Assembly (NCBI RefSeq): GCF_001839655.2
Contig: NZ_CP056087.1
Coordinates: 4,588,001 to 4,652,000, forward strand
Direction: 5' to 3'
DNA length: 64,000 bases
From: Pseudomonas argentinensis
GTDB lineage: Bacteria; Pseudomonadota; Gammaproteobacteria; Pseudomonadales; Pseudomonadaceae
How positions within the stretch are numbered: the stretch's first letter is position 1; every line of letters starts with the position of its first letter. The position numbers were made by a program, and so were the translations under genes. Below the pieces are notes generated by a model that saw nothing but the letters and a program-made list of their open reading frames with translations, was not told the DNA's origin and made no database searches. Of the stretch, positions 11,816-37,525 are shown one piece after another.

Positions 11816-12028
11816 GACCTGTTCACAGTCTTTTAGGCGACATTAAAGAGACTGCAAAAAGGCAGAAGCGGACATTGAACTTCAAGCCGCAAGCCTCAAG
11901 CTGCAAGAACAAGCTAGAGCACTGCGGACTGCTTCTAACCTGTAGCTTGGGGCTTGCAGCTTGCGGCTGTTTCCGCCACATTGCAGTCAAAACGCTGAAG
12001 GTGGGGCCGATAGATCGTGAACAGGCTC
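11816..12028 (+). repeat. 213-bp terminal-inverted-repeat element, copy A (MITE-like)
   Basis: The element starts at the base after the DUF58 stop codon with GACCTGTTCACAGTCTTTTA and ends AGATCGTGAACAGGCTC, so its ends are imperfect inverted repeats of about 17 bp. If the stop-codon G is counted, the left end aligns with the other copies over 17 positions. Inside is a long imperfect hairpin made from GCCGCAAGC and GCTTGCGGC arms with CAAGCTGCAAG units. Copies B (34879-35092) and C (37313-37525) share nearly the whole sequence. No matching target duplication is seen here (CTA or TAG on the left, TTG on the right). Confidence 0.85.
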
Positions 12029-12142
12029 TTGGACCGAGCGCGCCGTTCGCCCGGCTGCCGTTACTTTGTTACCGGCGGCTGCCCACACGCACGCCATTCC
12101 CTATACTGCGCTCCATCGTTTATGCCCGTGGAGCCTACGCCC

Positions 12143-12436
12143 GTGAACTTTTCGTCCTGGACACCCAAGGAGCGCCTGATTTCCGCGGCCTTCTTCGCCG
12201 TGGCCATTGGTTGCCTGCTGTACGGTTTCGCCTCGGGCGTACCGCCGATGAGCAGCGAGTTCTTCTCGATGTTCGCCGTGGTATCGCTGGTGATCGGCTT
12301 GGCCCTGACCCCGCGCTTCATGCTGCAGCCGCTGCGTGACAGCCTCGGCGCCAACCTCTCCAAGCCACTGCGCATCGCCCTGGGTTTCTTCTGCGCCTTC
12401 CAGCTGATCGCCGTAATCCGGGTGATCGCAGGCTGA
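12143..12436 (+). CDS. Small inner membrane protein (97 aa), unknown function
   Basis: I chose the GTG at 12143 because GGAG lies 9 bp upstream; an ATG at 12122 has no Shine-Dalgarno sequence. The product starts MNFSSWTPKERLISAAFFAV and has about three hydrophobic segments: a first helix (about 12-30), a second (about 38-58) and a C-terminal one. A small membrane protein of this kind follows the MoxR cluster in P. aeruginosa (PA4324 by position, from memory). Here the 213-bp element separates it from the cluster. Function unknown. Confidence 0.75.
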   Translation: MNFSSWTPKERLISAAFFAVAIGCLLYGFASGVPPMSSEFFSMFAVVSLVIGLALTPRFMLQPLRDSLGANLSKPLRIALGFFCAFQLIAVIRVIAG

Positions 12437-12446
12437 GCAGGGCTAG

Positions 12447-12514
12447 GGGCCTGTTAACCCTTCCGCACGACCGCGCCGGAGCCCTTCGGCTTGCGCGGTA
12501 GCGTTAACAGGCCC
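12447..12514. repeat. 68-bp palindromic element with GGGCCTGTTAAC ends
   Basis: It begins GGGCCTGTTAAC and ends GTTAACAGGCCC, a perfect 12-bp inverted repeat. The interior can fold into a GC-rich hairpin (CCGCGC...GCGCGG with a CTTC loop). Its right end touches the stop codon of the transglutaminase gene, sharing one base. The left 40 bp recur at 29089-29127. The ends resemble those of the larger elements (GAGCCTGTTCAC). It could double as a terminator between two convergent genes, although there is no T tract. Confidence 0.75.
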
Positions 12515-13401
12515 TACAGCGGCGTGACCGTCACCTGCACGTCCGGGTCGTGATGGCCGCCGCCGAGAATCACCCCGCGCAGGGGTGAGACATCACCGAA
12601 ATCACGTCCCCAGGCCAGGGTGACGTGCTCCAGCGCCGGCAACAGGTTGTTGGTCGGGTCGAAGTCCACCCAGCCGTTGTGCGGGCAGTACACCGACACC
12701 CAGGCATGGGAGGCATCGGCCCCCACCAGCCGCGCCTGACCCGGCGGCGGCTGGGTCAGCAGGTAGCCGCTGACGTAGCGGGCGGCCAGCCCCCGGGAAC
12801 GCAGGCAGGCCAGCATCAGGTGGGCGAAGTCCTGGCACACCCCGCGCCGCTGTTCGAGCACCGTCAACAGCGGTGTGGCCACCAGGGTAGCGCCCGCATC
12901 GAAGGCGAATTCGTCGTGAATCTTCTGCATCAGCCCCTGCACCGCTTCCAGCAATGGCCGCTGGGGAGGGAAGCAGTCGGCCGCGAAAGCGTCGAAGGCC
13001 GGCTCCAGGCCCACGTAGGGTGAAGCGAATCGATAGCGCACGGCCTCCAGGGCTTCGGCTGGCCAGGCGCGCCGCTGGTAGCGCAGGGCCTGGCGCACGG
13101 CGGTCCAGGGCGGCGAGCCTGGCAGGTCGACCGGGCGGCGCGGCAGCACTTCGACCGTCAGCTGTGCGCGTACGTGCAGGGCATCATGGGGCCGCTCGAA
13201 GGCCAGCCGGGTCAGCGGATTGCCGAACACGTCGCGACCATCCAGGCGCCGACAGGGTGGCGGGCTGACCAGCAGATTCTGCGCCAGGCAGCGCTGCCAG
13301 ATGCAGTCGCGCGGCCCCAGGTGCGCCAGTTGCTGAGCCAGGGAAACCGGCGCCGCGTAGCGGTAATGGGTGTCGTGCAGCACCTGGTAACGCCGGCTCA
13401 T
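12514..13401 (-). CDS. Transglutaminase-like cysteine protease family protein
   Basis: The 295 residues have the N-terminal beta domain of bacterial transglutaminase-like proteins (MSRRYQVLHDTHYRY) and the core domain with a Cys-His-Asp triad: Cys in GVCQDFAHLML, His in DASHAWVSVY, Asp in WVDFDPTNN. There is no signal peptide, so it is probably cytoplasmic. Such proteins act as proteases or amide-bond enzymes; the substrate is unknown. Its start overlaps the stop of the ATP-grasp/alpha-E gene by 4 bp, so the two are translationally coupled and probably cooperate. Confidence 0.93.
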   Translation of the reverse strand: MSRRYQVLHDTHYRYAAPVSLAQQLAHLGPRDCIWQRCLAQNLLVSPPPCRRLDGRDVFGNPLTRLAFERPHDALHVRAQLTVEVLPRRPVDLPGSPPWTAVRQALRYQRRAWPAEALEAVRYRFASPYVGLEPAFDAFAADCFPPQRPLLEAVQGLMQKIHDEFAFDAGATLVATPLLTVLEQRRGVCQDFAHLMLACLRSRGLAARYVSGYLLTQPPPGQARLVGADASHAWVSVYCPHNGWVDFDPTNNLLPALEHVTLAWGRDFGDVSPLRGVILGGGHHDPDVQVTVTPL

Positions 13402-15878
13402 GACGACTGGGTTCCCTGGCTGGCGGCCACATGGGCGAAGAAACGCAGGCTCAGCTGCTCGGAGACGGTGCCGGCGGCCTGGCCGATGGCATCGAGCAGC
13501 CCGGCCAGCCCTTCGAGCACGGCGCGAATGCCGCCGGCACCGAACAAGGGGTTTTCCAGGCTGTGCAGATCGAAGGCGCTCAAGCGTCGTTCGAGCTGCG
13601 CCAGGCCAGGGCTGCCTGGCATATCGAAGCGCTCGGCCAGGCGTTTCAGGGCGCGCAACAGCAGGCGCAGCTGGTACAGCACGGCATGGGGGTTGCGCTC
13701 GTCGAGCAGCAGCAGGTCGAGCACCGGAATCAGCTGGGCGCTGGCCATGTAGCGGGTGCGATAGGTGATCGAGCTGTTGCCCAGTTCCAGCAGCCAGTCC
13801 AGCGCCGCGGCGTCGTCACTGGCGCCGATACGCAGGAAGCCGCCGATGCTGTCGCAGAGAAACTGCAGCCGCTCGATGCAGCGGCCGATCATCAAAAAGC
13901 GCCAGCCATCGTCGCGGGTCATGTCGTCGAGGGCGAAACCGGACAGCGCGGCCAGGGAGATCATCAGCCGGTTGAGCACATCCAGCAGTTGCCCGAGGTC
14001 ACCCTCACGCCCTTCCAGGCGCTGCAGGTCGCGCTGCAGCTCCACCATGGCCTGCCAGTTGGCCTGGGACAGCTTGCCGCGCACGCTGCCGGCCGTCCAT
14101 TGCAGGCGCTGCAGGTTGACGCGCACGCTGGCGGGCCACTCGCTGCCGAGCAGCGCTTCGCGCAAACGCGTCTCCAGGGTGCCGTGGGCCTCATCGGGCA
14201 AGGTGCCGAGTGTCTCGGCGAGCGCGAACATGGCCTGCAGCGCCCGCGGGTCGTCATCGTCATCGACGTAGCGGGCCAGCATGATGCGCAGCAGCCGCGC
14301 GTTGTCCTCGCAGCGCTCGCTGTAGCGCCCGAACCAGAACAGGTTTTCCACCACCCGCGAGGGCAGGTAGGGGTCGCTGCGCACCAGATCGGCAGCGCCC
14401 AGGGCGCGCGTGCCCTGCCAATGCTCACCGGGCGCCTGGCGTTCGCCCAGCACCCAGGTGTCCTTGCTGACGCCACCGCGCTGCATGGACATCACCTCGC
14501 CATCGCTGGCCACGGCCACCCGGGTCAAGCCGCCGGGCATCACCCGGTAACCGTCGCCGCTGGCCACGGCGAACACGCGCATGCCGATGGCGCGCGGCTG
14601 CATGCCCTGTTCGCCGAGCCACACCGGCGCCCGGGACAGCTGCACGGGCGCCTGGGCCACATAGGCCTCGGGGTGTTGGCGCAGGTGATTCGCCAGTTGC
14701 TGCGCCTCCAGATCGCCCGCCTGCCCCGCGATAACAGGTTGCGCCGCTGCACAGGGGCGAATCAGCCAGTTCGGCAGGTCTCCAAGCACCTGCGCCAGTA
14801 CCGGCGCCTCCCCGCACCAGGCACTGGTGATGCCGGGCAACAGCAGCGGCTCGCCGAGCAGGCGCTCGCTGATCGCCGGCAGGAATCCGCTCAGTCCCGG
14901 CGCTTCCAGCAGGCCACTGCCCAGGGCGTTGGCCATCAGCACCCTGCCCTGGCGCACCACCTCCAGCAGCCCGGGCACGCCGAGCGCCGAATCGCTGCGC
15001 AGCTCCAAGGGATCGCAGAAATCGTCATCCAGGCGGCGCAGCACCGCATGCACCCGCTGCAGCCCGGCGAGGGTCTTGAGGTAGAGCGTGGCATCGCGCA
15101 CGGTCAGGTCGCTGCCTTCCACCAGCGGGTAGCCGAGCTGGCGCGCCAGGTACAGGTGCTCGAAATAGCTCTCGTTGAAGCGCCCGGCGGTCAGCACCAC
15201 TACCAGCGGCGTGTCGTTGCCGGCCGGCGCCTGGCTGGTCAGGGTGTCCTGCAGGGTGCGGAAGAAACCGGCCAGGTGCTGCACGCCAAGGTCGCGGTAC
15301 AGCTCGGGAAAGGCCCGCGAGATGATCTGCCGGTTCTCCAGGGCGAAGCCGACACCGGCCGGCGCCTGGGTGCGATCGGCGATCACCTGCCACCGGCCGT
15401 CCGCCGAGCGGGCCAGGTCCACGGCGTACAGGTGCAAATAGGTGCTGCCGGGCGGCTGTACGCCCTGGCATGGCCACAGGAAGCTCTCGTGTCCGAACAC
15501 CAGCTCCGGCGGCAGCAGCCCCTCGGCCGGCAGTTGCTGCGGGCCGTAAAGGTCGGCCAGCACCTTGTCGAGCAGGCCGGCGCGCTGCGCCACGCCCGCG
15601 GCGATGGACTGCCATTCGGCCGCGGGCAGTAAATTGGGCAGCAGATCCAGCTCCCAGGGCCGGTCGGCACCGTCGGGATCGGCGTAGACGTTGTAGGTGA
15701 CGCCGTTGGCCTGGATCTGCCGGGAGACCATGGCCTGGCGCTGCTGCAACTGCCCGGGCGTGCTGCGCCGCAGCTGGCCCAGCAGCGGCCGCCAGTGCCC
15801 ACGCACCTGCCCCTGGCGGTCGAGCAACTCGTCGTAGGCCGCCTCGTCAGGCAGGTAACCGGCAAGCAAGTCAGGCAT
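13398..15878 (-). CDS. Circularly permuted ATP-grasp / alpha-E domain fusion protein
   Basis: The 826-residue protein joins two families that are often separate genes: an N-terminal circularly permuted ATP-grasp module (about residues 60-470; ATP-grasps form carboxylate-amine bonds) and a C-terminal all-helical alpha-E domain (about 500-810, beginning SRVVENLFWFGRYSERCEDN). Comparative genomics links the pair to transglutaminase-like proteins and predicts synthesis or processing of a peptide tag, without experimental proof that I know of. The ATG at 15878 was chosen because similarity starts at MPDLLAGYLPDEAAYDELL; an upstream ATG adds 34 low-complexity residues. Confidence 0.92.
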   Translation of the reverse strand: MPDLLAGYLPDEAAYDELLDRQGQVRGHWRPLLGQLRRSTPGQLQQRQAMVSRQIQANGVTYNVYADPDGADRPWELDLLPNLLPAAEWQSIAAGVAQRAGLLDKVLADLYGPQQLPAEGLLPPELVFGHESFLWPCQGVQPPGSTYLHLYAVDLARSADGRWQVIADRTQAPAGVGFALENRQIISRAFPELYRDLGVQHLAGFFRTLQDTLTSQAPAGNDTPLVVVLTAGRFNESYFEHLYLARQLGYPLVEGSDLTVRDATLYLKTLAGLQRVHAVLRRLDDDFCDPLELRSDSALGVPGLLEVVRQGRVLMANALGSGLLEAPGLSGFLPAISERLLGEPLLLPGITSAWCGEAPVLAQVLGDLPNWLIRPCAAAQPVIAGQAGDLEAQQLANHLRQHPEAYVAQAPVQLSRAPVWLGEQGMQPRAIGMRVFAVASGDGYRVMPGGLTRVAVASDGEVMSMQRGGVSKDTWVLGERQAPGEHWQGTRALGAADLVRSDPYLPSRVVENLFWFGRYSERCEDNARLLRIMLARYVDDDDDPRALQAMFALAETLGTLPDEAHGTLETRLREALLGSEWPASVRVNLQRLQWTAGSVRGKLSQANWQAMVELQRDLQRLEGREGDLGQLLDVLNRLMISLAALSGFALDDMTRDDGWRFLMIGRCIERLQFLCDSIGGFLRIGASDDAAALDWLLELGNSSITYRTRYMASAQLIPVLDLLLLDERNPHAVLYQLRLLLRALKRLAERFDMPGSPGLAQLERRLSAFDLHSLENPLFGAGGIRAVLEGLAGLLDAIGQAAGTVSEQLSLRFFAHVAASQGTQSS

Positions 15879-16146
15879 GTATGTCCCAGAGGAGTCCGTC
15901 GATGGCGCTGCGTTGCCGCGCGCCGTGAAAGCGTAGCTGCTGCCACCCGCCAGGGGGCTGCAGATGGTCAAGAATGCCACCTGGACCAGGCGCTGCCCAG
16001 CTGCCAGGCGCGATCAGCCAGCAAGATGTGCGCCAGTCACGGGTTTGCCGAGGCGACGACGGCACGGGCGAACGGGCCGGACAACGCCCCTTAGCCAGCG
16101 CCTCGCGCTTCCGTTACCATCGGCACACCCAGTAGCGAGACGCGGC
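15879..16146. promoter_or_regulatory. Divergent intergenic region, ATP-grasp gene / cbrX
   Basis: 268 bases without a credible gene. It must hold the promoters of the leftward ATP-grasp/transglutaminase operon and of cbrX-cbrA. I see no clear sigma-70 or sigma-54 boxes. Confidence 0.35.
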
Positions 16147-16323
16147 ATGTATATCTATCGATTGGTTCTGATTCTGGTAGTCGGTATCTACCTGTTCTCG
16201 CCTGCCATCATGGACTGGTGGATCGACCCCAACGGCGCCTGGTACCGCCCCTACATGCTGTGGCTGATCCTGATCGTGGTGACCTTCATCCTGCAGAGCC
16301 AGCGCGATGCCGATGAGCTCTGA
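16147..16323 (+). CDS. cbrX: Small membrane protein CbrX upstream of cbrA
   Basis: The 58-residue protein is almost entirely two transmembrane helices (MYIYRLVLILVVGIYLF and MLWLILIVVTFIL) joined by a loop containing DWWIDPNGAWYRPY. In pseudomonads a small gene called cbrX lies directly before cbrA and affects its expression; position and size fit. In P. putida, as I recall, cbrX and cbrA overlap and are translationally coupled. Here 57 bp separate them, so coupling would have to work differently. Protein function is unknown. Confidence 0.75.
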   Translation: MYIYRLVLILVVGIYLFSPAIMDWWIDPNGAWYRPYMLWLILIVVTFILQSQRDADEL

Positions 16324-16380
16324 ACCGATGCGCCAGCCGACGCCCGCCGCCTCCCCTGAATCGCAGAGCCGTGAATGCCG

Positions 16381-19329
16381 ATGAGCTTTAGCCTCAGCGG
16401 GCTGATGCTGATCAGCGCCGCCTACCTGCTCGTGCTGTTCGCCGTCGCCTGGTGCGCCGACCGCGGCCTGATCCCACGCCGCCTCATCCGCCACCCGCTG
16501 ACCTACACCCTGTCGCTGGGCGTGTACGCCAGCGCCTGGGCCTTCTATGGCAGCGTCGGCCTCGCTTACCAGTATGGCTACGGCTTCCTGGCCAGTTACC
16601 TGGGCGTGACCGGCGCCTTCCTGCTCGCCCCGGTGTTGCTCTACCCCATCCTGCGCATCACCCGCACCTACCAGCTGTCATCGCTGGCCGACCTGTTCGC
16701 TTTCCGCTTTCGCAGCACCTGGGCCGGCGCGCTGAGCACCCTGTGCATGCTGATCGCCGTGCTGCCGCTGCTGGCCCTGCAGATCCAGGCGGTGACCGAC
16801 GCCATTGGCATCCTCACCCGCGAAGCGGTGCAGCCGCAGATCGCCCTCGCGTTCTGCGGGCTGTTCATCCTGGTGACCATCCTGTTCGGCGCCCGCCACC
16901 TGGCCACCCGGGAAAAACACGAAGGCCTGGTGTTCGCCATCGCCTTCGAGTCGGTGGTCAAGCTGCTGGCCATGGGCGCCATCGGTCTGTACGCGCTGTA
17001 TGCGGTATTCGACGGCCCTCGTGAGCTGGAGCAATGGCTGGTGCTCAACCAGGCCGCCCTGGCCAGCCTGCACACGCCCTTGCAGGAAGGCCCATGGCGT
17101 ACCCTGCTGCTGGTGTTCTTCGCCTCGGCGATCGTCATGCCGCACATGTACCACATGACCTTTACCGAGAACCTCAACCCGCGGGCCCTGGTCAGCGCCA
17201 GCTGGGGCCTGCCGCTGTTCCTGCTGCTGATGAGCCTGGCCGTGCCGCTGGTGCTGTGGGCCGGGCTGCGCCTGGGCTCGACCACCAACCCAGAGTACTT
17301 CACCCTCGGCCTGGGCATCGCCGTGGACAGCCCGACGCTGGCGCTGATCGCCTACATCGGCGGCCTGTCGGCCTCCAGCGGGCTGATCATCGTCACCACC
17401 CTGGCGCTGTCCGGCATGCTGCTCAACCATGTGGTGCTGCCGCTCTACCAGCCGCCGGCCGAAGGCAACATCTACCGCTGGCTGAAATGGACGCGCCGCG
17501 CGCTGATCGTCGCCATCATCCTGGCCAGCTACGCCTTCTACAACCTGCTCGACGCCCAGCAGGACCTGGCCAACCTGGGCATCGTCTCCTTCGTCGCCAC
17601 CCTGCAGTTCCTGCCCGGCGTGCTCTCGGTGCTGTACTGGCCGACCGCCAACCGCCGCGGCTTCATCGCCGGGCTGCTGGCTGGTATCGCGGTGTGGGGC
17701 GTGAGCATGCTGCTGCCGCTGCTCGGTACCCTGCCCGGCCTGTACGTGCCGGTGCTGGATCTTGTCTACGTGCTCGATGACAGCAGCTGGCACCTGGCGG
17801 CCATCGCCTCGCTGGCCATCAACGTGCTGGTGTTCACCCTGGTTTCGGTGTTCACCGACTCCAGCCCCGAGGAAGACAGCGCCGCCGAGGCCTGCGCGGT
17901 GGACAACGTGCGCCGCCCGCAACGCCGCGAACTACTGGCCCTGTCCCCTCAGGAGTTCGCTGCCCAGCTGGCCAAGCCCCTCGGCGCCAAGACCGCCCAG
18001 CGCGAGGTCGAACAGGCCCTGCGCGACCTGCACCTGCCCTTCGACGAAAGCCGCCCCTACGCGCTACGCCGCCTGCGTGACCGCCTGGAGGCCAACCTGT
18101 CCGGCCTGATGGGCCCCAGCGTGGCCCAGGACATCATCGAATCCTTCCTGCCCTACAAGTCCGGCAGCGAAGGCTACGTGACCGAGGACATCCACTTCAT
18201 CGAGAGCCGCCTGGAGGACTACCACTCGCGCCTCACGGGCCTGGCCGCCGAGCTCGATGCCCTGCGCCGCTACCACCGCCAGACCCTGCAGGAGCTGCCC
18301 ATGGGCGTCTGCTCACTGGCCAAGGATCACGAGATCCTGATGTGGAACAAGGCCATGGAGGAACTCACCGAGATTCCCGCCCAGCGCATCGTCGGCTCGC
18401 GCCTGTCGACCCTGGCCGAGCCCTGGCGCGAGCTGCTGCAGAGCTTCACCGAGATTCCCGACGAGCACCTGCACAAGCAGCGCCTGGCCCTCGACGGCCA
18501 GACCCGCTGGCTGAACCTGCACAAGGCGGCCATCGACGAACCCCTGGCCCCCGGCAACAGCGGCCTGGTGCTGCTGGTCGAGGACCTGACCGAGACCCAG
18601 ATGCTCGAAGACAAGCTGGTGCACTCCGAACGCCTGGCCAGCATCGGCCGCCTGGCCGCCGGGGTGGCCCACGAGATCGGCAACCCGATCACCGGCATCG
18701 CCTGCCTGGCGCAGAACCTGCGCGAGGAACGGGAGGGCGACCCCGAGCTGACCGAAATCAGCGGGCAGATCCTCGAGCAGACCAAGCGGGTCACGCGCAT
18801 CGTCCACTCGCTGATGAACTTCGCCCACTCCGGCAACCACCAGCAGGCCGACGAGCCGGTGTGCCTGGCGCAAATCGCCCAGGAAGCCATCGGCCTGCTG
18901 GCTCTCAACCGGCGCAGCGTCGACGTGCAGTTCTTCAACCTCTGCGATCCCGCGCACCGCGCCGAAGGCGACCCCCAGCGCCTGGCCCAGGTGCTGATCA
19001 ACCTGCTCAGCAATGCCCGCGACGCCTCGCCTGCCGGCGGCGCGATCCGGGTGCGCAGCGAGGCGTCCGAGCACACTGTCGACCTGATCGTCGAGGACGA
19101 AGGCAGCGGCATTCCCAAGGGCGTGATGGACCGGCTGTTCGAGCCGTTCTTCACCACCAAGGATCCCGGAAAAGGAACCGGACTCGGCCTCGCGCTGGTC
19201 TATTCCATCGTGGAAGAGCATTATGGCCAGATAACAATCGACAGCCCGATCGACCCCGAGCAGCAACGTGGCACCCGCATCCGGGTGACGCTGCCGCGGC
19301 ACATCGAGGCAATGCCACTGGCGAACTAA
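16381..19329 (+). CDS. cbrA: Two-component sensor histidine kinase CbrA
   Basis: CbrA controls use of carbon and nitrogen sources such as histidine, arginine and proline. Domain order in the 982 residues: an SLC5-type transporter domain with about 12-13 helices (1-490), a linker/STAC region, a PAS domain (about 635-740), the phospho-acceptor helix with GVAHEIGNPITGIA, and a HATPase with DEGSGIPKG and GTGLGLALVYS. The start at 16381 (MSFSLSGLML) matches the family; an in-frame ATG 6 bp earlier is an alternative, and neither has a strong ribosome-binding site. cbrB follows after 92 bp. Confidence 0.97.
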   Translation: MSFSLSGLMLISAAYLLVLFAVAWCADRGLIPRRLIRHPLTYTLSLGVYASAWAFYGSVGLAYQYGYGFLASYLGVTGAFLLAPVLLYPILRITRTYQLSSLADLFAFRFRSTWAGALSTLCMLIAVLPLLALQIQAVTDAIGILTREAVQPQIALAFCGLFILVTILFGARHLATREKHEGLVFAIAFESVVKLLAMGAIGLYALYAVFDGPRELEQWLVLNQAALASLHTPLQEGPWRTLLLVFFASAIVMPHMYHMTFTENLNPRALVSASWGLPLFLLLMSLAVPLVLWAGLRLGSTTNPEYFTLGLGIAVDSPTLALIAYIGGLSASSGLIIVTTLALSGMLLNHVVLPLYQPPAEGNIYRWLKWTRRALIVAIILASYAFYNLLDAQQDLANLGIVSFVATLQFLPGVLSVLYWPTANRRGFIAGLLAGIAVWGVSMLLPLLGTLPGLYVPVLDLVYVLDDSSWHLAAIASLAINVLVFTLVSVFTDSSPEEDSAAEACAVDNVRRPQRRELLALSPQEFAAQLAKPLGAKTAQREVEQALRDLHLPFDESRPYALRRLRDRLEANLSGLMGPSVAQDIIESFLPYKSGSEGYVTEDIHFIESRLEDYHSRLTGLAAELDALRRYHRQTLQELPMGVCSLAKDHEILMWNKAMEELTEIPAQRIVGSRLSTLAEPWRELLQSFTEIPDEHLHKQRLALDGQTRWLNLHKAAIDEPLAPGNSGLVLLVEDLTETQMLEDKLVHSERLASIGRLAAGVAHEIGNPITGIACLAQNLREEREGDPELTEISGQILEQTKRVTRIVHSLMNFAHSGNHQQADEPVCLAQIAQEAIGLLALNRRSVDVQFFNLCDPAHRAEGDPQRLAQVLINLLSNARDASPAGGAIRVRSEASEHTVDLIVEDEGSGIPKGVMDRLFEPFFTTKDPGKGTGLGLALVYSIVEEHYGQITIDSPIDPEQQRGTRIRVTLPRHIEAMPLAN

Positions 19330-19421
19330 ATTCCGAAGAACCGCATTCCTGGGAGTGCGCGGCCGGGCTTGGCTGCGGCAACAGGAAGCAGGTTCCGAGA
19401 CCGTCGAGAGAATTCGTTTAA

Positions 19422-20843
<1,422 letters not shown>

Positions 20844-20869
20844 CACGGCGCGCAACGCTCTAGGGCGGA

Positions 20870-21010: not shown

Positions 21011-21019
21011 TTATTTCTG

Positions 21020-21366
21020 GCACAACAACAATAACAAGCATGACCCACGATAATAAAAATAAGACGCAACGGCTTCAGCACAATAAGAACAAGATCGCGG
21101 AAGGCGCAGCTAACTGATTATTTTGGAGAGGATCGCCTCTCGGCTCCCCAGCCAGACAGACAACAACAATAAATGTCGACGGATACCACCCACGCGGTGA
21201 GATCCAGGGCCCGAGGTAGCGTCAGCATCCAAAATAATCCGTTCGCTCTTGCTCCCAGTCGGGAGGTACTCCGGATCCGATCCGGAAACAGGCATCCCAA
21301 CAAGAACAACAGCCTGCATAACAAGAACGACATGGCAACATTTATGGGGGAGCTTCGGCTCCCCCA
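21020..21366 (+). ncRNA. crcZ: CrcZ small regulatory RNA
   Basis: CrcZ sequesters Hfq (with Crc) and so relieves catabolite repression. This stretch lies between cbrB and pcnB, the position of crcZ in other pseudomonads, and starts behind a sigma-54 promoter. It contains at least five clusters of the Hfq distal-face motif AANAANAA: about 21024-21037, 21055-21062, 21082-21092, 21162-21172, 21299-21309 and 21320-21327. A strong hairpin GGGGGAGC-TTCG-GCTCCCCC at 21346-21365 probably marks the 3' end, although no T tract follows. The predicted length of about 347 nt is somewhat shorter than the roughly 400 nt I recall for PAO1, so the 3' end could lie further on. Confidence 0.88.
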
Positions 21367-21490
21367 GTCGTATCCCGCCCGGCCTGCCCGCCTCCCCGCT
21401 TACGCCTCACTGTCACCTAATGCTAGAATCCGCGCTATTTCTGCGCCTTTCCATTATTCTGGCCGCTCAATTCGTCATACAGTGCCCTCC

Positions 21491-27120: not shown

Positions 27121-27128
27121 AACCCGCC

Positions 27129-29066
<1,938 letters not shown>

Positions 29067-29088
29067 CGACCGCTCCCGGGCGCTCTAG

Positions 29089-29127: not shown

Positions 29128-29207
29128 CATGGAGCGCCGCGATACCCGGCACATCCGCCATTGTGGCCGGACTTGTGGCCAGCATCCGCGCGCATTAGGC
29201 TCGCGCC

Positions 29208-30083
29208 ATGGAAATCATTCGCCGCCGTATCGAACAGCAAGCCCTGAGCCTGAGCGGCATTTCTCTCGGCCAGATCGACTTCGAAAACCCCAAGGGCGAC
29301 CCTGGCCTGTTCGGCCCGGAGGCGGTGTGCTGGCGTATCCACGGCGACTTCACCAGCATGCTGATCGGCGGTATCACCGCCCTGCTATTGCAGGCACTGC
29401 ATCCGCTGGCGCTGGCCGGGGTCTGGGATCACTCCAATTTTCGCGAAGACCTGCTCGGCCGTTTGCGCCGCACCGGCCAGTTCGTTTCCGGCACCACCTT
29501 CGCCAGCCGGGCCGACGCCGACTGGCTGATCGACAAGGTCAGGCGCATCCACCTGCATGTGGTCGGTACCGCGCCGGATGGCCGCCCCTACAGCGCCAGC
29601 GACCCCGAACTGCTGACCTGGGTACACGTGGCCGAGGTGCACAGTTTTCTGCAGGCGCATTTGCTTTATCTCAATCCGCAGATGAGCGGCGCCGATCAGG
29701 ATCGCTACTACGCCGAGATCGCCCTGGTGGCCGAACGCCTGGGCGCGCGCGACGTGCCACGCGACCGGGCGCAGATCGACAGCTACCTGCAGCGCATGCG
29801 AGGCCAGTTGCAGTGCGACGAACGCTCACGGGAAATCCTGCGCATCCTGCTGGCGGCACCTGCGCCCAGCCGGCTGGCCGCACCGGTTGGCAAGCTGTTT
29901 ATGCAGGCCGGTATCGACCTGTTGCCGGACTGGGCGCAGCGGATGCTCGACCACCCCATGACGCCGCTGCGCAGCCGCCTGGTACGCAGCGGCGTGCACG
30001 GCATCGCGCCGGTCATTCGCTGGGCGGTGCGCAGTGGCTCGCTGCACCGGTCGCGAATTCGCATGGGCCTGCCGCCGTACTGA
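29208..30083 (+). CDS. Oxygenase MpaB family protein (DUF2236)
   Basis: The 291-residue protein matches the DUF2236 family, which includes the fungal MpaB and latex-clearing rubber oxygenases. Typical features are VCWRIHGDFTSMLIGG, the conserved QALHPLALAGVWDHSNF with a candidate haem-ligand His, and the later TWVHVAEVHSFLQAHLL with two more His. There is no signal peptide. The substrate is unknown; most bacterial members are uncharacterised. It stands alone between acs and a methyltransferase gene. Confidence 0.88.
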   Translation: MEIIRRRIEQQALSLSGISLGQIDFENPKGDPGLFGPEAVCWRIHGDFTSMLIGGITALLLQALHPLALAGVWDHSNFREDLLGRLRRTGQFVSGTTFASRADADWLIDKVRRIHLHVVGTAPDGRPYSASDPELLTWVHVAEVHSFLQAHLLYLNPQMSGADQDRYYAEIALVAERLGARDVPRDRAQIDSYLQRMRGQLQCDERSREILRILLAAPAPSRLAAPVGKLFMQAGIDLLPDWAQRMLDHPMTPLRSRLVRSGVHGIAPVIRWAVRSGSLHRSRIRMGLPPY

Positions 30084-30179
30084 GCGTCCGGCAAGCCAGG
30101 CATGCAACGGGGACCCGGCAGGCGTTCAATGGATTCCGAGGGTGGTAGACTGCGCGCCCCTTTTCCACGAGTCGCCGCC

Positions 30180-31196
30180 ATGCCGTCTCTCGACCAGGCA
30201 GTGCGCGCCGCACTCGCCAATCGCCAAGCCCTGATCGCCGAACTGCACGGGCAGCAAACAAACTGCTATCGCCTGTTCCATGGCAGCCAGGAAGGCGCCG
30301 GTGGCCTGACCCTCGACCGCTACGGCCCGCAGCTGATGGTGCAGAGCTTTCACCAGACCCTGGGCCGCGACGAGCTGCTGGCCCTGCACGAGCAAGTCGA
30401 CGAAACCCTCGGGCTGCAGACACTGCTGGTCTACAACGACCGCTCCAGGGGCAACTCGCGCGTCGACCGCAGCGACCTGGTGTACAGCGCCGATGACGAC
30501 GCGCTGGTCGACCTGGTGGGTCGGGAATGGGGCCTGAACTACCGGGTTCGCGGCCGGCATGCCGGGCAGGACCCACTGCTGTTTCTCGACCTGCGCAACG
30601 CCCGCGGCTGGGTGCAGCGCCATAGCGCCGGGAAAAGCGTGCTCAACCTGTTCGCCTACACCTGCGGCGTGGGCTTGAACGCCGCCGCTGGCGGTGCCCG
30701 CGAGATAGTCAACCTCGACTTCGCCGAAGGCAACCTGGCGGTTGGCCGGGAGAATGGCGCACTCAACCCGAACCTGCCGGCCATGCAGTACGTGCAATCG
30801 GATTACTTCCCGGCGATCCGCCAGTGGGCCGGCCTGCCCATCGCTGCCCGGCGCGGCCAGAAACTGCCGAGCTACCCACGCCTGGAACAGCGCCAGTTCG
30901 ACCTGGTGTTTCTCGACCCGCCGGCCTGGGCCAAGAGCGCCTTTGGCACCGTCGACCTGCTGCGCGATTACCAGAGCCTGCTCAAGCCGGCGATTCTCGC
31001 CACCACCGAAGACGGCACCCTGGTGTGCTGCAACAACCTGGCGAAAGTCGCCATGGAAGAGTGGCGCGAGCAGGTGTTGCGTTGTGCCGCCAAGCTCGGT
31101 CGCCCGGTACGCGAGTACGAGCAATTGCAGCCGGCGCAGGACTTCCCTTCGCAGGATGGCAACCCGCCGCTGAAAACCCTGGTTCTGCATTTCTGA
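30180..31196 (+). CDS. Class I SAM-dependent methyltransferase (RlmI/RlmK-like)
   Basis: The 338 residues include a SAM-binding Rossmann domain with NLFAYTCGVGLNAAAGG (motif I), an acidic NLDFAEGN, and the catalytic-type DLVFLDPPAWAKS found in rRNA base methyltransferases such as RlmI and RlmK. The N-terminal part (TLDRYGPQLMVQSF) matches the RlmI-type substrate-binding domain rather than a THUMP domain. Probably an rRNA methyltransferase; the modified base cannot be told. The ATG at 30180 begins where family similarity starts. Confidence 0.85.
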   Translation: MPSLDQAVRAALANRQALIAELHGQQTNCYRLFHGSQEGAGGLTLDRYGPQLMVQSFHQTLGRDELLALHEQVDETLGLQTLLVYNDRSRGNSRVDRSDLVYSADDDALVDLVGREWGLNYRVRGRHAGQDPLLFLDLRNARGWVQRHSAGKSVLNLFAYTCGVGLNAAAGGAREIVNLDFAEGNLAVGRENGALNPNLPAMQYVQSDYFPAIRQWAGLPIAARRGQKLPSYPRLEQRQFDLVFLDPPAWAKSAFGTVDLLRDYQSLLKPAILATTEDGTLVCCNNLAKVAMEEWREQVLRCAAKLGRPVREYEQLQPAQDFPSQDGNPPLKTLVLHF

Positions 31197-31273
31197 TAAG
31201 CGGCCGCCTCCCGTGGAACCCAGGCCCCATGCCATAATCCAAGGCACTCCCGCCAGGAAGATGAAGCGAAACC

Positions 31274-34222
31274 ATGCCCAAAGGATTGCGCCGCGCCGCC
31301 ACTGCCCTGTTGATTGCCCTGGGGCTGTACAGCCTGATCGGCTTCCTGATCCTGCCAGGCGTTGCCCTGCGCATCGCCAATCAGCAGTTGGCGAATTACG
31401 CCACCCAGCCGGCGCGGCTGGATCGTCTGCAGCTCCACCCCTTTACCCTGGAACTTAAACTGTGGGGCCTGCACCTGGGCGAGCCCGGCAAGGAGCAGGT
31501 GGCGTTCGAACACCTGACGGTCGACCTGCAGCTGGACAGCCTGTGGAGCGGCGCCCTGCACCTGGCGGACGTGACCCTGGTCAAGCCGCACACCGAGGTC
31601 CGTTTCGCCAAGGACGGCAGCCTGAACCTGGCGCAACTGTTCAAGCTGCCGCCCAGCGAGCCCAAGCCCGACGAGCCGAGCGAGCCGAGCGAGCCGTTTC
31701 CCCTGCGTATCGACCGTATCGAACTCGCCGGCGGCAACCTGCGCTTTCAGGACCTGCGCCCCCAGGAGCCGATCGACATCCACTACGACGACCTGAACCT
31801 CGAGCTGCACAACCTCAGCACCCTGCCGGACGACAACGCCGACATGACCCTGGTGGCCACCGGCCCGGCCGGTGGGCGCATCGATTGGCGCGGCGAGCTG
31901 AGCCTGAGCCCGTTCAGCTCCAGCGGCAACCTGAAGATCACCGACGAGCCCATGCAGGCCTTCTGGCCCTACGTGCGCGACGCCGTACCGCTGGTGCTCG
32001 AGCAGGGCGTGGTGAATCTCGCCACCGACTACCGCCTGGACCTGCGTCAGGGCACCGAGCTGACGCTCAGCAACACCCGTATCAAGGCCGCGCCCTTCGC
32101 CATGAAAACCCCGGACGGCAAGCCGCTGGTCAAGCTGCAAGCCCTGGAGATCAGCGAAACCTCGCTGGACCTGGCCAAGCAGCAGGTGGTGATCGGCAAG
32201 GTGCGCGGGCAGAAGCTCGAAGCCTGGGCTGCCCGCGAAAAAGATGGTGAGCTGGACTGGCAGAAGCTGTTTGCCGGCAAGCCACAGCAGGCGCAAACAG
32301 ACGATGGCAAACAACCGAACGCCGGCGTCAGCGAGAACGACAGCCAGGCCAGGCCAGCCACGAAAGCGCCCGCCAAGCCCTGGCAGGTGCAGGCCAGGGA
32401 CGTGCAGCTGCGCGACTACCACGCCCACCTGGTTGACCGTGTGCCGAGCGAGGAAGTCGCCGTCGAACTCGGCCCGCTCAACCTCGACATGCAGAATTTC
32501 GACAGCCTGGGCACCTCGCCCTTCACCCTCAAGTTGGATACCGGCGTCGGCAAGCAGGGCAAGCTCGAGGCCCAGGGCCAGGTGCAGCTGAGCCCGACCA
32601 CCGCCCGCCTGAAGGTCGCCACCCGCAACCTCGATATGCGCCTGGCCCAGGCCTATATCAGCCCCTTCGTGCACCTGGAACTGCGCAGCGGCCTGCTGAG
32701 CAGCGATCTCGACGTCGCCCTGACCAGTACCGAGCCCCTGGCGCTGCGCGTGCAGGGCAACGCCCAGGTGACCCAGTTGCATACCCTCGACACGATCAAG
32801 GACCGCGACCTGCTGCGCTGGAAGCAGCTCGACCTGGGCGGCATCGATTACCGCCATGGCGAGCGCCTGGACATCGAACGGGTCGACCTGCAGCAGCCTT
32901 ATGCGCGTTTCATCATCAACGAAGACCTCACCACCAACGTCAACGAGCTGATCATCAGGCAGCCGGCCGGCAATGCCGCGCAGGCGCAGTCGTCCGCTGC
33001 GGCATCCGAGAGCAAACCGCTGGCGATCCGCATCGGCGAGGTCAACCTCAAGGACGGCTCGGCCAACTTCGCCGACTTCAGCCTCCGGCCCAACTTCGCC
33101 ACCGCCGTGCAGCAGCTCAATGGCCGCATCGGCACCCTCGACAGCACAGGCAACAAGCCTGCTCCGGTGGATATCAGCGGCAAGGTCGACCGCTACGCAC
33201 CGGTCAGCATCAAGGGCAGCCTGACGCCGTTCGACCCGCTGCAGAGCCTGGACATCGCCACCCGCTTCCGCCAGGTCGAGCTGACCACCTTGACGCCTTA
33301 CTCCGGCAAGTTCGCCGGCTATCGCATCCGCAAAGGCCGGCTGAACCTGGATCTGCACTACCGAATCAACGACGGCAAGCTCAATGCAGAGAACAAGGTG
33401 CTGGTCGAGCAGCTGCAGCTCGGCGAAAAGGTCGACAGCCCGGACGCCGTCGACCTGCCGATCCGCCTGGCCGTGGCCCTGCTCAAGGACACCCAGGGGC
33501 GTATCTCCCTGGAGCTGCCCGTACAGGGCGATCTCAACGACCCGCAGTTCAGCGTCATGCCGATCGTCTGGCAGACCCTGCGCAACCTGGTGCTGCGCAC
33601 CGCCCAGGCGCCGTTCAAGTTCATCGGCGGCCTGGTCAGCGGCGGCAGCGAGATGGATCTCAGCACCGTGCTGTTCACCCAGGGCAGTGCCGAACTGGAC
33701 GGCCAGGCCCGCAAAGCCCTCGACACCCTGGCCAGCGCCCTGCAGGAACGCCCGGCCCTGCGCCTGGAAATCGAAGGCGCCGCCGCCCAGAGCAGCGACG
33801 GCCCGCCTCTCGCCGAACGGCGCCTGGAGCGCGAGTACCAGGATTACCTGTACCGCATCATGCAGCGTCGTGGTGACCAGGTGCCGGCCAGTGCCGAAGA
33901 GCTGGTGGTGCCCGAGGACGAAAAAGCGCCGCTGCTCGAAGGCATCTACCGCGCACGCCTCAAGCAGCAGCCGCCGGCCGACTGGGCCAAACTGAGCGAT
34001 GAAGAACGCACCGCCAAGCTGCACGCGGCGGTGCTGGCATCCTGGAGCGACAGCCGCGGCCTGCAGCGCCAGCTGGCGCAGGCACGTGCGGCGGCGATCA
34101 AGGCCTATCTGGTGGACAATGGCAAACTGGCGGACGAGCGTATCTACCTGCTCGACGTCAACCTGGGCCAGGCCGAACCCGATGGCCGCGTGGCCACCCC
34201 CCTTCATCTGGGCAGCGAGTGA
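31274..34222 (+). CDS. DUF748 domain-containing envelope protein (982 aa)
   Basis: An N-terminal helix (ALLIALGLYSLIGFLILPG) anchors the protein in the inner membrane, and the rest is a long repetitive beta-type region of the AsmA-like/DUF748 class, predicted periplasmic. Around residues 795-845 FTQGSAELDGQARKALDTLA resembles the start of an OmpA-like domain. Relatives of AsmA are proposed to bridge the envelope and carry phospholipids; that role is not shown for DUF748 itself. Its stop overlaps the start of the DUF2845 gene by one base (TGATG), so they are coupled. Confidence 0.9.
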   Translation: MPKGLRRAATALLIALGLYSLIGFLILPGVALRIANQQLANYATQPARLDRLQLHPFTLELKLWGLHLGEPGKEQVAFEHLTVDLQLDSLWSGALHLADVTLVKPHTEVRFAKDGSLNLAQLFKLPPSEPKPDEPSEPSEPFPLRIDRIELAGGNLRFQDLRPQEPIDIHYDDLNLELHNLSTLPDDNADMTLVATGPAGGRIDWRGELSLSPFSSSGNLKITDEPMQAFWPYVRDAVPLVLEQGVVNLATDYRLDLRQGTELTLSNTRIKAAPFAMKTPDGKPLVKLQALEISETSLDLAKQQVVIGKVRGQKLEAWAAREKDGELDWQKLFAGKPQQAQTDDGKQPNAGVSENDSQARPATKAPAKPWQVQARDVQLRDYHAHLVDRVPSEEVAVELGPLNLDMQNFDSLGTSPFTLKLDTGVGKQGKLEAQGQVQLSPTTARLKVATRNLDMRLAQAYISPFVHLELRSGLLSSDLDVALTSTEPLALRVQGNAQVTQLHTLDTIKDRDLLRWKQLDLGGIDYRHGERLDIERVDLQQPYARFIINEDLTTNVNELIIRQPAGNAAQAQSSAAASESKPLAIRIGEVNLKDGSANFADFSLRPNFATAVQQLNGRIGTLDSTGNKPAPVDISGKVDRYAPVSIKGSLTPFDPLQSLDIATRFRQVELTTLTPYSGKFAGYRIRKGRLNLDLHYRINDGKLNAENKVLVEQLQLGEKVDSPDAVDLPIRLAVALLKDTQGRISLELPVQGDLNDPQFSVMPIVWQTLRNLVLRTAQAPFKFIGGLVSGGSEMDLSTVLFTQGSAELDGQARKALDTLASALQERPALRLEIEGAAAQSSDGPPLAERRLEREYQDYLYRIMQRRGDQVPASAEELVVPEDEKAPLLEGIYRARLKQQPPADWAKLSDEERTAKLHAAVLASWSDSRGLQRQLAQARAAAIKAYLVDNGKLADERIYLLDVNLGQAEPDGRVATPLHLGSE

Positions 34223-34518
34223 TGAGCATGAAACGACTGAGTCTGCTACTGGCACTGTGCGCCAGCCCGCTGCTAAGCCACGCCGACACGCTGCGCTGCG
34301 GCAGCAAGCTGGTGAACCTGGGCGATCGCACCTTCGAGGTGATGCACAAATGTGGCGAGCCGGCGTTTCGCGATCCGGTCGGCTACACCGTTGGCCCCTA
34401 CAACCGACGTGAAACCAGTATCGAGGAATGGGCCTACGAGCCCAGCAACGGCATGTTCACCATCCTGACCTTCGAGGGCAATCGGCTGACGCGCATCGAG
34501 CGCAAACGCCGGCAATAA
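34222..34518 (+). CDS. DUF2845 secreted protein, first copy
   Basis: A 98-residue protein with a signal peptide (MSMKRLSLLLALCASPLLSHA, cleavage after SHA) and a mature part starting DTLRCGSKLV with two Cys (LRCGS and HKCGEP) that could form a disulfide, a conserved IEEWAYEPSNGMF and the basic end RIERKRRQ. That is the DUF2845 pattern. The start at 34222 overlaps the DUF748 stop by one base. The next gene is a paralog. Function unknown; periplasmic location is predicted. Confidence 0.87.
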   Translation: MSMKRLSLLLALCASPLLSHADTLRCGSKLVNLGDRTFEVMHKCGEPAFRDPVGYTVGPYNRRETSIEEWAYEPSNGMFTILTFEGNRLTRIERKRRQ

Positions 34519-34520
34519 CC

Positions 34521-34823
34521 ATGATCAAGACACTCATCCCCTGCCCCCTGCTCGTGCTGCTGGCCGGCACCGTCGATGCCGCGACCTGGCGCTGCGGCAG
34601 CGCGATCGCCAGCACCGGCGACACCACGGCCGAGGTGCAGGCCAAATGCGGCGAGCCAAATAACCGCGCGTTCGTCGGTTACAAGGAGCAGACCGACAGC
34701 TATGGCTTCACCCATGAGGTGCAGATAGAAGAATGGAATTATGGCCCGCGCAACGGCATGAACTACTTCCTGCGCTTTGTGGGCAATCGTCTGGAGCGGA
34801 TCGACAGCAAGCGCGGCGATTAG
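34521..34823 (+). CDS. DUF2845 secreted protein, second copy
   Basis: A 100-residue paralog of the preceding protein: signal peptide MIKTLIPCPLLVLLAGTVDA, mature start ATWRCGSAIAS, the same two Cys (WRCGS, AKCGEP) and the motif IEEWNYGPRNGMNYFLRF. It begins 2 bp after the first copy's stop, so this is a tandem duplication inside one transcript with the DUF748 gene. Function unknown. Confidence 0.87.
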   Translation: MIKTLIPCPLLVLLAGTVDAATWRCGSAIASTGDTTAEVQAKCGEPNNRAFVGYKEQTDSYGFTHEVQIEEWNYGPRNGMNYFLRFVGNRLERIDSKRGD

Positions 34824-34878
34824 CTTGCTGCCCTAAGCGGATAGGCGACGACAGAAGGTCGCCGCCGGAGAGATCCTG

Positions 34879-35092
34879 GAACCGGCTCAAAGGCTTCAAG
34901 CCCAGGTTCGTCAATTTTAGCAGCTAAGTGGCGCAAGCAGCTGCAAGCTCCAAGCTCCAAGCTACAGGTTAAAAGCAGTCCGCAGTGCTCTAGCTTCTTC
35001 TTGCAGCTTGAGGCTTGCGGCTTGAAGCTCAATGTCCGCTTCTGCCTTGTAGCAGCCTCTTTCATATCGCCTAAAAGATCGTGGACAGGTTC
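34879..35092 (-). repeat. 214-bp terminal-inverted-repeat element, copy B
   Basis: This copy is inverted relative to copy A. Its right end AGATCGTGGACAGGTTC (35076-35092) directly touches the TAA stop of the leftward gene at 35093. The left end (GAACCGGCTC...) is degenerate. The interior has the same hairpin arms and a block nearly identical to copies A and C (CTTGAGGCTTGCGGCTTGAA and surroundings). Confidence 0.82.
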
Positions 35093-35380
35093 TTAGCCGC
35101 GAGCGGCTTTGACTGCCTGGATATAGGCTTCGGCATTGCGCTGATCCTGGATCAGGGCGATGAAGTCATTGCCGGCGGCGTCCTTGGCATCCAGGTCATA
35201 ACCGGCCTCGACGAAGAAGCCCAGGAAACGCTCGAAGTCGTGATCGCGCAGGCCACGGTAGGCCTTGACCAGCTTGTGCAGCGAGGGCGGCGTGGCATCG
35301 GCCGGTTCCACGGCGAGAAACAGCTTGATCTGCTCATCGCTCACGTCGTCGCCAATCACCTGCTTCTTGTCTTTACGCAT
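35093..35380 (-). CDS. PA4642 family small protein
   Basis: The 95-residue cytoplasmic protein begins MRKDKKQVIGDDVSDEQIK and contains LVKAYRGLRDHDFERFLGFF, matching the Pseudomonas-specific family named after PA4642. No catalytic motif is visible. The stop codon abuts repeat copy B. Function is unknown. In PAO1 the gene lies close to hpt-upp-uraA, as here. Confidence 0.85.
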   Translation of the reverse strand: MRKDKKQVIGDDVSDEQIKLFLAVEPADATPPSLHKLVKAYRGLRDHDFERFLGFFVEAGYDLDAKDAAGNDFIALIQDQRNAEAYIQAVKAARG

Positions 35381-35576
35381 CGCTCACTCCAGCCAACCAG
35401 AACACACGGGGCCGGCAGTGTAACGCCGGCGCTGCAGCCGCTCAACGCACGACGCGAATACCGACTGCAGCCGGTCTTTGTAACACCGCCGCGCCTCCGT
35501 CACCAGCCGACATAGGTCAACACCCAAGCGCCCGGCGCCGCTCTATACTGGCGGCAATCCTCCAGGAAGCGCCACC

Positions 35577-37283
35577 ATGCCCACCCTGTTCGCCGCCTGC
35601 CGCCAGAGCCTGCGTAGTGGCTACTCCTGGGCCAGCCTGCGCGGCGACCTGGGGGCCGGCCTCACGGTGGGCATCATCGCCATTCCCCTGGCCATGGCCC
35701 TGGCGATCGCCGTGGGCGTGGCGCCGCAACACGGCCTGTACACGGTGCTGGTCGCCGCCCCGCTGATCGCCCTGTGCGGTGGCTCGCGCTTCAATATTTC
35801 CGGCCCCACCGCCGCCTTCGTGGTGATCCTCCTGCCGATCACCGGGCAGTTCGGCATCGGCGGACTGCTGCTGTGCACCCTGATGGCCGGGCTGATCCTG
35901 ATCGCTCTGGGGCTGTTCAAGGCCGGGCGGTTGATCGAATTCGTGCCCTACCCGGTCACCCTCGGTTTCACCGCCGGCATCGGCATCGTCATCGCCACCC
36001 TGCAGCTCAAGGACCTGCTCGGCCTGCAATTGGCCGGGCAGCCAAGCCACTACGTACAGCAGCTGCAGATGCTCTGGCAGGCGCTACCCGGCATCCAGCC
36101 CGGTGACAGCCTGGTGGCCCTGGCCTGCCTCAGCGTGCTGCTGCTATGGCCGCGGCTGGTGCCGCGGGTGCCCGGGCACCTGGTGGCGCTGACGGCTGGC
36201 GCATTGCTGGGCATGGCACTGGAACGGGGCGGTCTGCCGGTGGCGACCCTGGGCGAGCGTTTTAGCTACAGCGTCGGTGGCATCAGCTATCCGGGCATTC
36301 CGCCGTTTCTGCCGAGCTTCGCCTGGCCCTGGCAATTGCCGGGCGCCGATGGCCAGCCGCTGCTGCTGTCGTTCGAGCTGATCCGCCAGTTGCTGGCGCC
36401 GGCCTTTGCCATTGCCATGCTTGGCGCCATCGAGTCGCTGCTTTGCGCGGTGGTCGCCGACGGCATGACCGGCAGCAAGCACGATCCCAACGCCGAACTG
36501 CTCGGCCAGGGCATCGGTAACCTGGTCGCGCCGCTGTTCGGCGGCATCACCGCCACCGCGGCCATCGCCCGCAGTGCCACCAATGTACGGGCCGGCGCCT
36601 GCTCACCGTTGGCGGCGATCATCCATGCCGGCGTGGTACTGGCGGCCATCGTGTTTCTCGCACCGCTGTTCAGCTACCTGCCGATGGCGGCGCTGGCCGC
36701 CCTGCTGCTGATGGTGGCCTGGAACATGAGCGAAGCCCATCACGTGGCCCACACCCTGCGCATCGCCCCACGCAGCGACGTGCTGGTGCTGCTGACCTGC
36801 CTGCTGCTCACGGTACTGTTCGACATGGTGCTGGCGGTGGGCGTCGGCCTGTTGCTGGCGGCCGGGCTGTTCATCAAGCGCATGAGCGAGCTGACCGATG
36901 CCCGCAGCCTTCCGCGGTACAGCCATCAGGCGCTGAACGACCTGCCCGAGCACGTGCTGGCGCTGGCCATCCGCGGACCCCTGTTCTTTGGCGCGGCGCA
37001 GCGCACGCTGGAAACCCTGCGCCGCCTCGACCCGCATATCCGCGTGGTGATTCTGGATGTCAGCGCCGTGCCGATGCTCGACATGACCGCCCTCGCCGCG
37101 CTGCATAGCACCGTGCTGGAATACCGCCAGCAGGACATCGCCCTGATCGTCAGCGGCGCCTCGCCGTCACTGCGCCTGAAGCTGCGCCGGGCCGGCCTGC
37201 AGCGAGCCCATGGGCGCCTCAGCTACGCCCGTGATCTAGCCCAGGCACGGGCGATGTGTGAAGGCTGGCCAGGCGACGCCTGA
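35577..37283 (+). CDS. SulP family anion transporter with C-terminal STAS domain
   Basis: The 568 residues have about 12-14 transmembrane segments (1-440), the SulP-typical ATAAIARSATNVRAGACSPLAAIIHA near residues 320-345, and a cytoplasmic STAS domain (about 450-560; DVSAVPMLDMTALAAL). SulP proteins carry sulfate, bicarbonate or dicarboxylates. It resembles DauA-type C4-dicarboxylate carriers in layout, but the substrate cannot be read from sequence. AGGAAG precedes the ATG and a TATACT hexamer lies about 30 bp upstream. Repeat copy C follows after 29 bp. Confidence 0.9.
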   Translation: MPTLFAACRQSLRSGYSWASLRGDLGAGLTVGIIAIPLAMALAIAVGVAPQHGLYTVLVAAPLIALCGGSRFNISGPTAAFVVILLPITGQFGIGGLLLCTLMAGLILIALGLFKAGRLIEFVPYPVTLGFTAGIGIVIATLQLKDLLGLQLAGQPSHYVQQLQMLWQALPGIQPGDSLVALACLSVLLLWPRLVPRVPGHLVALTAGALLGMALERGGLPVATLGERFSYSVGGISYPGIPPFLPSFAWPWQLPGADGQPLLLSFELIRQLLAPAFAIAMLGAIESLLCAVVADGMTGSKHDPNAELLGQGIGNLVAPLFGGITATAAIARSATNVRAGACSPLAAIIHAGVVLAAIVFLAPLFSYLPMAALAALLLMVAWNMSEAHHVAHTLRIAPRSDVLVLLTCLLLTVLFDMVLAVGVGLLLAAGLFIKRMSELTDARSLPRYSHQALNDLPEHVLALAIRGPLFFGAAQRTLETLRRLDPHIRVVILDVSAVPMLDMTALAALHSTVLEYRQQDIALIVSGASPSLRLKLRRAGLQRAHGRLSYARDLAQARAMCEGWPGDA

Positions 37284-37312
37284 GCCGCGCGCCGGCCAGC
37301 CGAAGGGCTTGG

Positions 37313-37525
37313 AACCTGTTCACAATCTTTCGCCTGGACTTCAGCGCTTTGCCTGCAAAGTGGCGGAAGCGGCCGCAAGCTGCAAGCTGCAAGCTACAAG
37401 TTAAAAGCAGTCCGCAGTGCTCTAGCTTCTTCTTGCAGCTTGAGGCTTGCGGCTTGAAGCTCAATGTCCGCTTCTGCCTTGTAGCAGCCTCTTTAATGTC
37501 GCCTAAAAAGATCGTGAACAGGCTC
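37313..37525 (-). repeat. 213-bp terminal-inverted-repeat element, copy C
   Basis: Both ends are well preserved: GAACCTGTTCACAATCT on the left (37313-37329) and AGATCGTGAACAGGCTC on the right (37509-37525), giving near-perfect 17-bp inverted repeats. The right end directly abuts the TGA stop of hpt. The interior repeats the hairpin of copies A and B. Flanking trinucleotides are TTG and TCA, so no target duplication remains. Confidence 0.88.

Follow-up and report, generated by a model that had tools for sequence, protein, structure and literature searches.

A 64,000-nucleotide stretch of the Pseudomonas argentinensis genome (the window; contig NZ_CP056087.1, positions 4,588,001 to 4,652,000) carries four short repeats with common terminal inverted repeats (TIRs), three of which adjoin a stop codon. 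We conclude that these repeats are very probably non-autonomous members of the IS5 family of insertion sequences (IS), that is, miniature inverted-repeat transposable elements (MITEs), which insert at the word CTNAG and duplicate its TNA; the supply of such targets and the survival of insertions explain most of the stop-codon pattern. The TIRs read GARCCTGTTCACGATCT(T), no gene lies inside, and a 3-bp TNA target duplication stands in a CTNAG context. Membership of the IS5-derived MITEs follows from three features found together: short transposase-free copies, TIRs shared with an IS, and the same target duplication as that IS.

The case illustrates how a palindromic target word, combined with survival, can mimic the targeting of stop codons, and it urges caution in inferring function from repeats at gene ends. 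With the stop re-formed by the duplication, dozens of elements can lie at gene ends in a compact GC-rich genome while its proteins stay unchanged. The analysis also offers a candidate transposase partner for this MITE family, the ends of which are found across several beta- and gammaproteobacterial genera. Finally, the exchange of cassettes inside conserved element shells, if true, would be an unusual route of turnover for bacterial repeats.

Four elements in the window

Copy 1 (11815 or 11816 to 12028, plus strand), copy 2 (34879-35092, minus strand) and copy 3 (37312-37525, minus strand) belong to a 213-bp class, and aligned with 20-bp flanks they show 87% mean column identity over 255 alignment columns. 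The A-arm of copy 1 adjoins the stop of a DUF58/VWA gene (10484-11815, plus strand); the final G of this TAG (11813-11815, plus strand) is also the first TIR base as aligned, and the far flank (12029-12031) is a decayed TTG. In copy 2, the A-arm adjoins the stop of a PA4642-family gene (35093-35380, minus strand; NF038106 match), whose TAA (35093-35095, minus strand) is the near target copy; the far TIR has decayed, and the far flank (34876-34878) reads CTG. The A-arm of copy 3 adjoins the stop of hpt, which encodes hypoxanthine-guanine phosphoribosyltransferase (37526-38083, minus strand); the TGA (37526-37528, minus strand) is the near target copy, and the far flank (37309-37311) reads TTG. 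The initial annotation had described these three junctions, and on re-reading its coordinates proved right to within 1 bp.

All three of its elements are real; it had overlooked a fourth with the same ends at 42297-42540 (strand unassigned), which is 244 bp long and differs from the other copies in its interior. This element lies off stop codons, with the 5' end of a gene on either side, and is flanked by a perfect duplication of TAA (42294-42296, plus strand, and 42541-42543). The TIR core, CCTGTTCACRATCT, has 8 matches in the window at 2 or fewer mismatches, where 0.46 are expected; 2 of them bound the fourth element. A lone TIR-like match with 2 mismatches at 41354-41367 has no partner and is either a decayed end or chance.

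The family across the genome

A search of the genome with the 213-bp sequence gave at least 70 matches (40 of 134 first-look candidates scored), and the TIR core at 1 mismatch or fewer gave 57 (27 + 30), with none for a reversed control. Scanning 528,574 bases of genome stretches for TIR pairs produced 58 automatic pairs. We dropped 17, comprising 12 longer than 260 bp (an element at 4331815 was spared) and 5 poor pairs, and re-paired 4 by hand; with single-ended elements excluded, this left 45 curated elements. All are short, many-copy and transposase-free, at 139-254 bp except for one of 501 bp. Genes were called by codon usage, a procedure whose start positions are unreliable; by these calls, 31 of the 45 sit on a stop codon within 2 bases. 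The stop is the flanking trinucleotide itself in 25 of the 31 and is displaced by 1-2 bases in 6. The stops so occupied comprise 16 TAA, 10 TGA and 5 TAG, versus 110, 251 and 56 among 417 called stops. The initial annotation had looked to the whole genome to tell its stop-codon pattern from random placement: placement is non-random (31 of 45), and mainly driven by the target.

A TIR variant, GARCCTGTTCAAAGTCT, occurs in four elements (4271430, 2118699, 4133508 and 2112098), two of which carry it at both ends. This suggests a second subfamily, perhaps with another partner IS. Exact TIRs occur in 15 of 119 genomes of the genus, our own counted.

Target site and duplication

To set beside these copies, named bacterial contigs were scanned for the exact TIR, which gave at least 120 stretches. 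Judging by the record titles of 80 stretches, the sources include many beta- and gammaproteobacteria (Comamonas, Acidovorax, Chromobacterium, Pseudogulbenkiania, Xanthomonas) along with some Pseudomonas and a small number of metagenome-assembled genomes from other phyla. No TIR pair was obtained at 75 loci, and 49 distinct elements were retained as a mixed-genus set. The target is sharply defined in this set: TNA stands on both sides of 46 of the 49 elements, the 3-bp flanks are identical in 42, none has a 4-bp match, and 22 show the perfect arrangement C-TNA...TNA-G. These counts bear out an earlier suggestion of TNA-type targets. In our own genome, flanking trinucleotides are identical in 12 of 45 elements and TNA stands on both sides in 18, while C precedes in 39 (position -1) and G follows in 33 (position +1); the own-genome copies are older than those of the mixed set.

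The way in which the element meets its target explains how it can sit on a stop without altering a protein. TNA reads as a TAA or TGA stop on one strand. The first base of the element is G and its last is C, which re-forms CTNAG at each junction; TAA, TGA, or TAG within CTTAG is thereby regenerated, and the protein stays as it was. One mixed-set element (L296:2132-2272) lies at the CTTAG overlap of two convergent genes, and the TAG of one and the TAA of the other are both restored, owing to the duplication and the terminal G.

The site behind hpt gives the order of events. The element is present there in our own genome and in the close relative G001; in a further 20 genomes, no TIR score above 13 of 18 is reached within 600 bp. 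The hpt stop lies at the same aligned position in 17 of these 20 element-free relatives and 1-2 bases away in 3. Since relatives without the element have the stop, the hpt stop predates the element.

An IS5-family partner

The IS5 family has subgroups such as IS427, IS1031 and ISL2, and TNA targets are known from some of its subgroups. When a 141-bp MITE from a genome of the genus was compared with plasmids, its first 21 bases matched Xanthomonas records annotated as IS5 family transposase (E = 1). On plasmid pXcc1 of Xanthomonas campestris (AP019683.1, 43197-44045) lies an IS of 849 bp with two open reading frames (ORFs), the 18-base TIR at both ends (18/18) and TTA on both sides. Its ORFs match PF13340 (DUF4096) and PF01609 (DDE_Tnp_1); against NCBIfam NF033580 (IS5 family), the C-terminal ORF scores above the cut-off and the N-terminal ORF below it (94.9 vs 110 bits). 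IS relatives sharing the TIR (including those at loci L233, L277 and L291) are 845, 849 and 892 bp long and share 68-87% of protein positions in aligned pieces; an additional relative measures 691 bp. Target copies are TTA/TTA, TCA/TCA and TTA/TTA in three IS copies, and TCA/TTA in L233. The pXcc1 IS and its relatives resemble the window elements in the TIR (identical at 18 of 18 positions for pXcc1) and in the TNA target copies; they differ in being 845-892 bp long with two transposase ORFs, whereas the window elements are transposase-free. Some matching transposase sequence occurs in 25 of the 120 TIR stretches listed, a count of sequence matches irrespective of a TIR beside them. A Methylomonas plasmid (L193) has one good TIR and no clear partner end.

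No transposase matching the Xanthomonas IS at E <= 1e-5 was found in our own genome or G001, while all 3 control genomes gave matches, and the Xanthomonas protein had no match at E <= 1e-30 in 298 genomes of the genus. In our own genome, PF13340 has no match and PF01609 has one, without a nearby TIR.

The TIR core also surfaced once in a literature search, its sole occurrence there being in a PCR primer: T679RIGHT, placed at the edge of a tandem duplication of 212 kb in Xanthomonas oryzae, contains the TIR (PMC4853030). From this primer sequence, that duplication junction may hold the IS or one of its relatives.

Stop codons: target supply or preference?

Stop-codon occupancy is high in both sets (31 of 45 own elements, 23 of 49 mixed-set elements), and the question is how much of it the target word supplies. 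A test that takes every TNA site outside coding sequence and weights it by its flanks expects about 20% on stops (31 of 45 observed, P about 1e-12). We do not rely on that figure, because the intergenic space holds missed genes and because the test ignores survival mainly in 3' gaps. We give most weight to case-control tests within 50 bp of stops, in which stops make up 64% of motif-weighted sites in our own genome (354 control stops; 31 of 38 observed, P = 0.014) and 61% in the mixed set (217 control stops; 23 of 34 observed, P = 0.28). The stop-codon targeting that the initial annotation had proposed is, by these numbers, hardly needed as such. This conclusion depends on the CTNAG weighting, without which the excess is strong.

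Tests within gaps took 40 of 45 own and 33 of 49 mixed elements (those with a 3' neighbour, within limits); their nulls can lean the opposite way, since the regions were selected for holding an element. Motif-weighted, they gave 17 observed vs 14.6 expected for own convergent gaps (P = 0.08) and 10 vs 11.9 for mixed-set convergent gaps (P = 0.98); both sets within 50 bp of the stop gave 48 vs 44.9 (P = 0.15). Convergent gaps themselves are enriched, with 23 of 45 elements vs 24% of weighted sites (P = 1.4e-4).

Several observations weigh against so simple an account. The own-genome case-control excess given above is residual after weighting, and CTNAG sites alone give an odds ratio of 3.0 (P = 0.12). 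Tandem gaps are in excess in the within-gap test, both in our own genome (14 vs 10.0 expected, P = 0.005, 14 of 17 gaps) and in the mixed set (7 vs 3.3, P = 0.006). The motif weights derive from 14 non-stop elements, and the unweighted excesses are large (case-control, 44% expected, P = 1.8e-6; own within-gap, P = 3.2e-7). Stops account for 36% of weighted sites in convergent gaps that lack an element and for 31% in such tandem gaps, vs 17 of 23 and 14 of 18 elements; an excess of this sort within gene-pair classes points to a degree of added preference or to errors in gene calling. To these is added the lack of a detected transposase in our own genome and G001, which makes mobilisation there historical.

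An active preference that goes beyond the CTNAG word to stops or the 3' ends of genes, mediated by a host factor or by some DNA feature of gene ends, would accommodate the tandem-gap excess, the own-genome residue and the occupancy itself, as well as the fall in own cases per weighted site with distance from the stop (0.35, 0.17, 0.11, 0.02). We consider it improbable: the mixed set shows no residual preference near stops, where its cases per weighted site are 0.67 at the stop and 0.62 at 3-25 bp, convergent gaps pooled over both sets give 27 vs 26.5 expected, and 10 of 49 mixed and 4 of 45 own elements have no gene 3' end beside them. Target supply and survival account for most of the stop effect; any preference for stops in their own right is small or nil, and a two- to three-fold residue may exist in this genome. 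That the three junctions of the window arose by chance is an explanation to which we give almost no credence, given the occupancy in the genome and the mixed set, even though the fourth window element lies off a stop.

It is also very unlikely that copies are retained as transcription terminators or 3'-end structures of the upstream gene, a role raised in the initial annotation. The location at gene ends, the favouring of convergent gaps and the strong fold of copy 3 (z = -6.0) would suit such a role, but copy 3 folds well because it is a palindrome bounded by TIRs, as any such palindrome is expected to. A simple consensus scan found no terminator-like site (a GC-rich hairpin with a T-run) in the four window elements. 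Orientation is free: the 18 copies with the GCAAGC-type interior on stops, counted by hand, divide 11 vs 7 (P = 0.48). Contact of one and the same element end with the stop is thus a feature of the three window copies that does not extend to the genome. The internal hairpin once cited in support lies in an interior that is replaced by other sequence at sites shared with G001.

Possibly exchangeable interiors in conserved shells

The 213-bp class consists of a shell, formed by the TIRs and arms of about 60 bp that meet in a AAGCGGCC/GGCCGCTT stem, with a cassette at the apex. Comparison of 30 of the 108 TIR matches in G001 (2 or fewer mismatches), plus four further loci, revealed shared sites for 10 of the 45 own elements, with flank identity of 85-97%. 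The shared elements of a 140-bp class keep their interior in 3 of 3 cases (139/140, 136/139 and 134/140). At the shared 213-class sites, 7 of 7 keep site and arms (the arms judged by eye) and the middles differ. Two of these seven sites lie in the window (34879-35092 and 37312-37525) and the others at own-genome positions 479470, 1498814, 1672530, 1764266 and 4124618; own and G001 lengths are 208/518, 210/542, 214/533, 214/509, 211/201, 219/194 and 221/215 bp. The difference is confined between GTGGCGnAAGC and CCGCTTnTGCCTT. Our own genome has a GCAAGC repeat as its cassette, and G001 has pairs resembling REPINs (palindromic pairs of repetitive extragenic palindromic, or REP, sequences), judged by eye in three shells, or a repeat of about 400 bp.

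The GCAAGC cassette occurs in 24 of 45 own elements, a count inflated by the use, for some of the list, of a query that contained the cassette, vs 0 of 16 G001 elements found by TIR. A 3-kb query against G001 gave 17 matches, to genes or shell arms, and none to the cassette alone (10 of 417 candidates scored). Among the matches listed, 11 of 17 other genomes of the genus have cassette matches. Fifteen GCAAGC cassettes in our own genome lack recognisable TIRs; many of them end near GTGGCGGAAGC and GCTTCTGCCTT, and some resemble shells whose TIRs have decayed.

We tentatively propose, as a possibility we would not yet favour, that the 213-bp class is a fixed shell with an exchangeable apex cassette, its tip being broken and repaired from another shell, or else palindromes being inserted there; repair at the hairpin tip is a guess at the mechanism. 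Separately, an element in Pseudomonas sp. URMO17WK12:I2 agrees with one in G001 in length (518 bp), ends and flanking trinucleotides (L245, L170), so G001 may belong to this species or to one close to it.

Relation to known repeats

The literature search, covering few subscription papers, returned no account of the present MITE or of MITEs seated on stop codons. MITEPsy1 of Pseudomonas syringae is a 100-bp element marked "IS5?" by its authors, with a target like CTAG or YTAA. It resembles the window elements as a Pseudomonas MITE with a tentative IS5 link; it differs in its TIR and its 4-nt target, and the accessible text contains no mention of stop codons that we could find (PMC3189936). ERIC, Correia and RUP are likewise described (PMC2229807) as small gene-less TIR elements that duplicate their target and lie between genes; those descriptions set them apart from the window elements by TA-type ends and other TIRs.

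REP sequences and REPINs are not known to have a fixed target duplication, and their hairpin ends are without IS-type TIRs. Those of Pseudomonas resemble the window elements in being palindromic and intergenic. The window elements differ in their conserved IS5-type TIRs and 3-bp TNA duplication, and do not belong with REP sequences or REPINs.

A possible history

Taken together, the data are consistent with the following course. A non-autonomous MITE would insert at CTNAG and duplicate TNA, moved by a transposase presumably supplied in trans. Insertions within or in front of genes would mostly be lost, and the copies that survive in this GC-rich genome would sit in its short 3' gaps, in which the commonest target is probably the stop codon. 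Selection on the gene would then keep the target copy that acts as its stop, and the far copy would decay. The element itself would require no function.

Other features of the window

Rfam returned nothing on the window elements. The CrcZ small RNA, a Pseudomonas marker, lies at 21022-21395.

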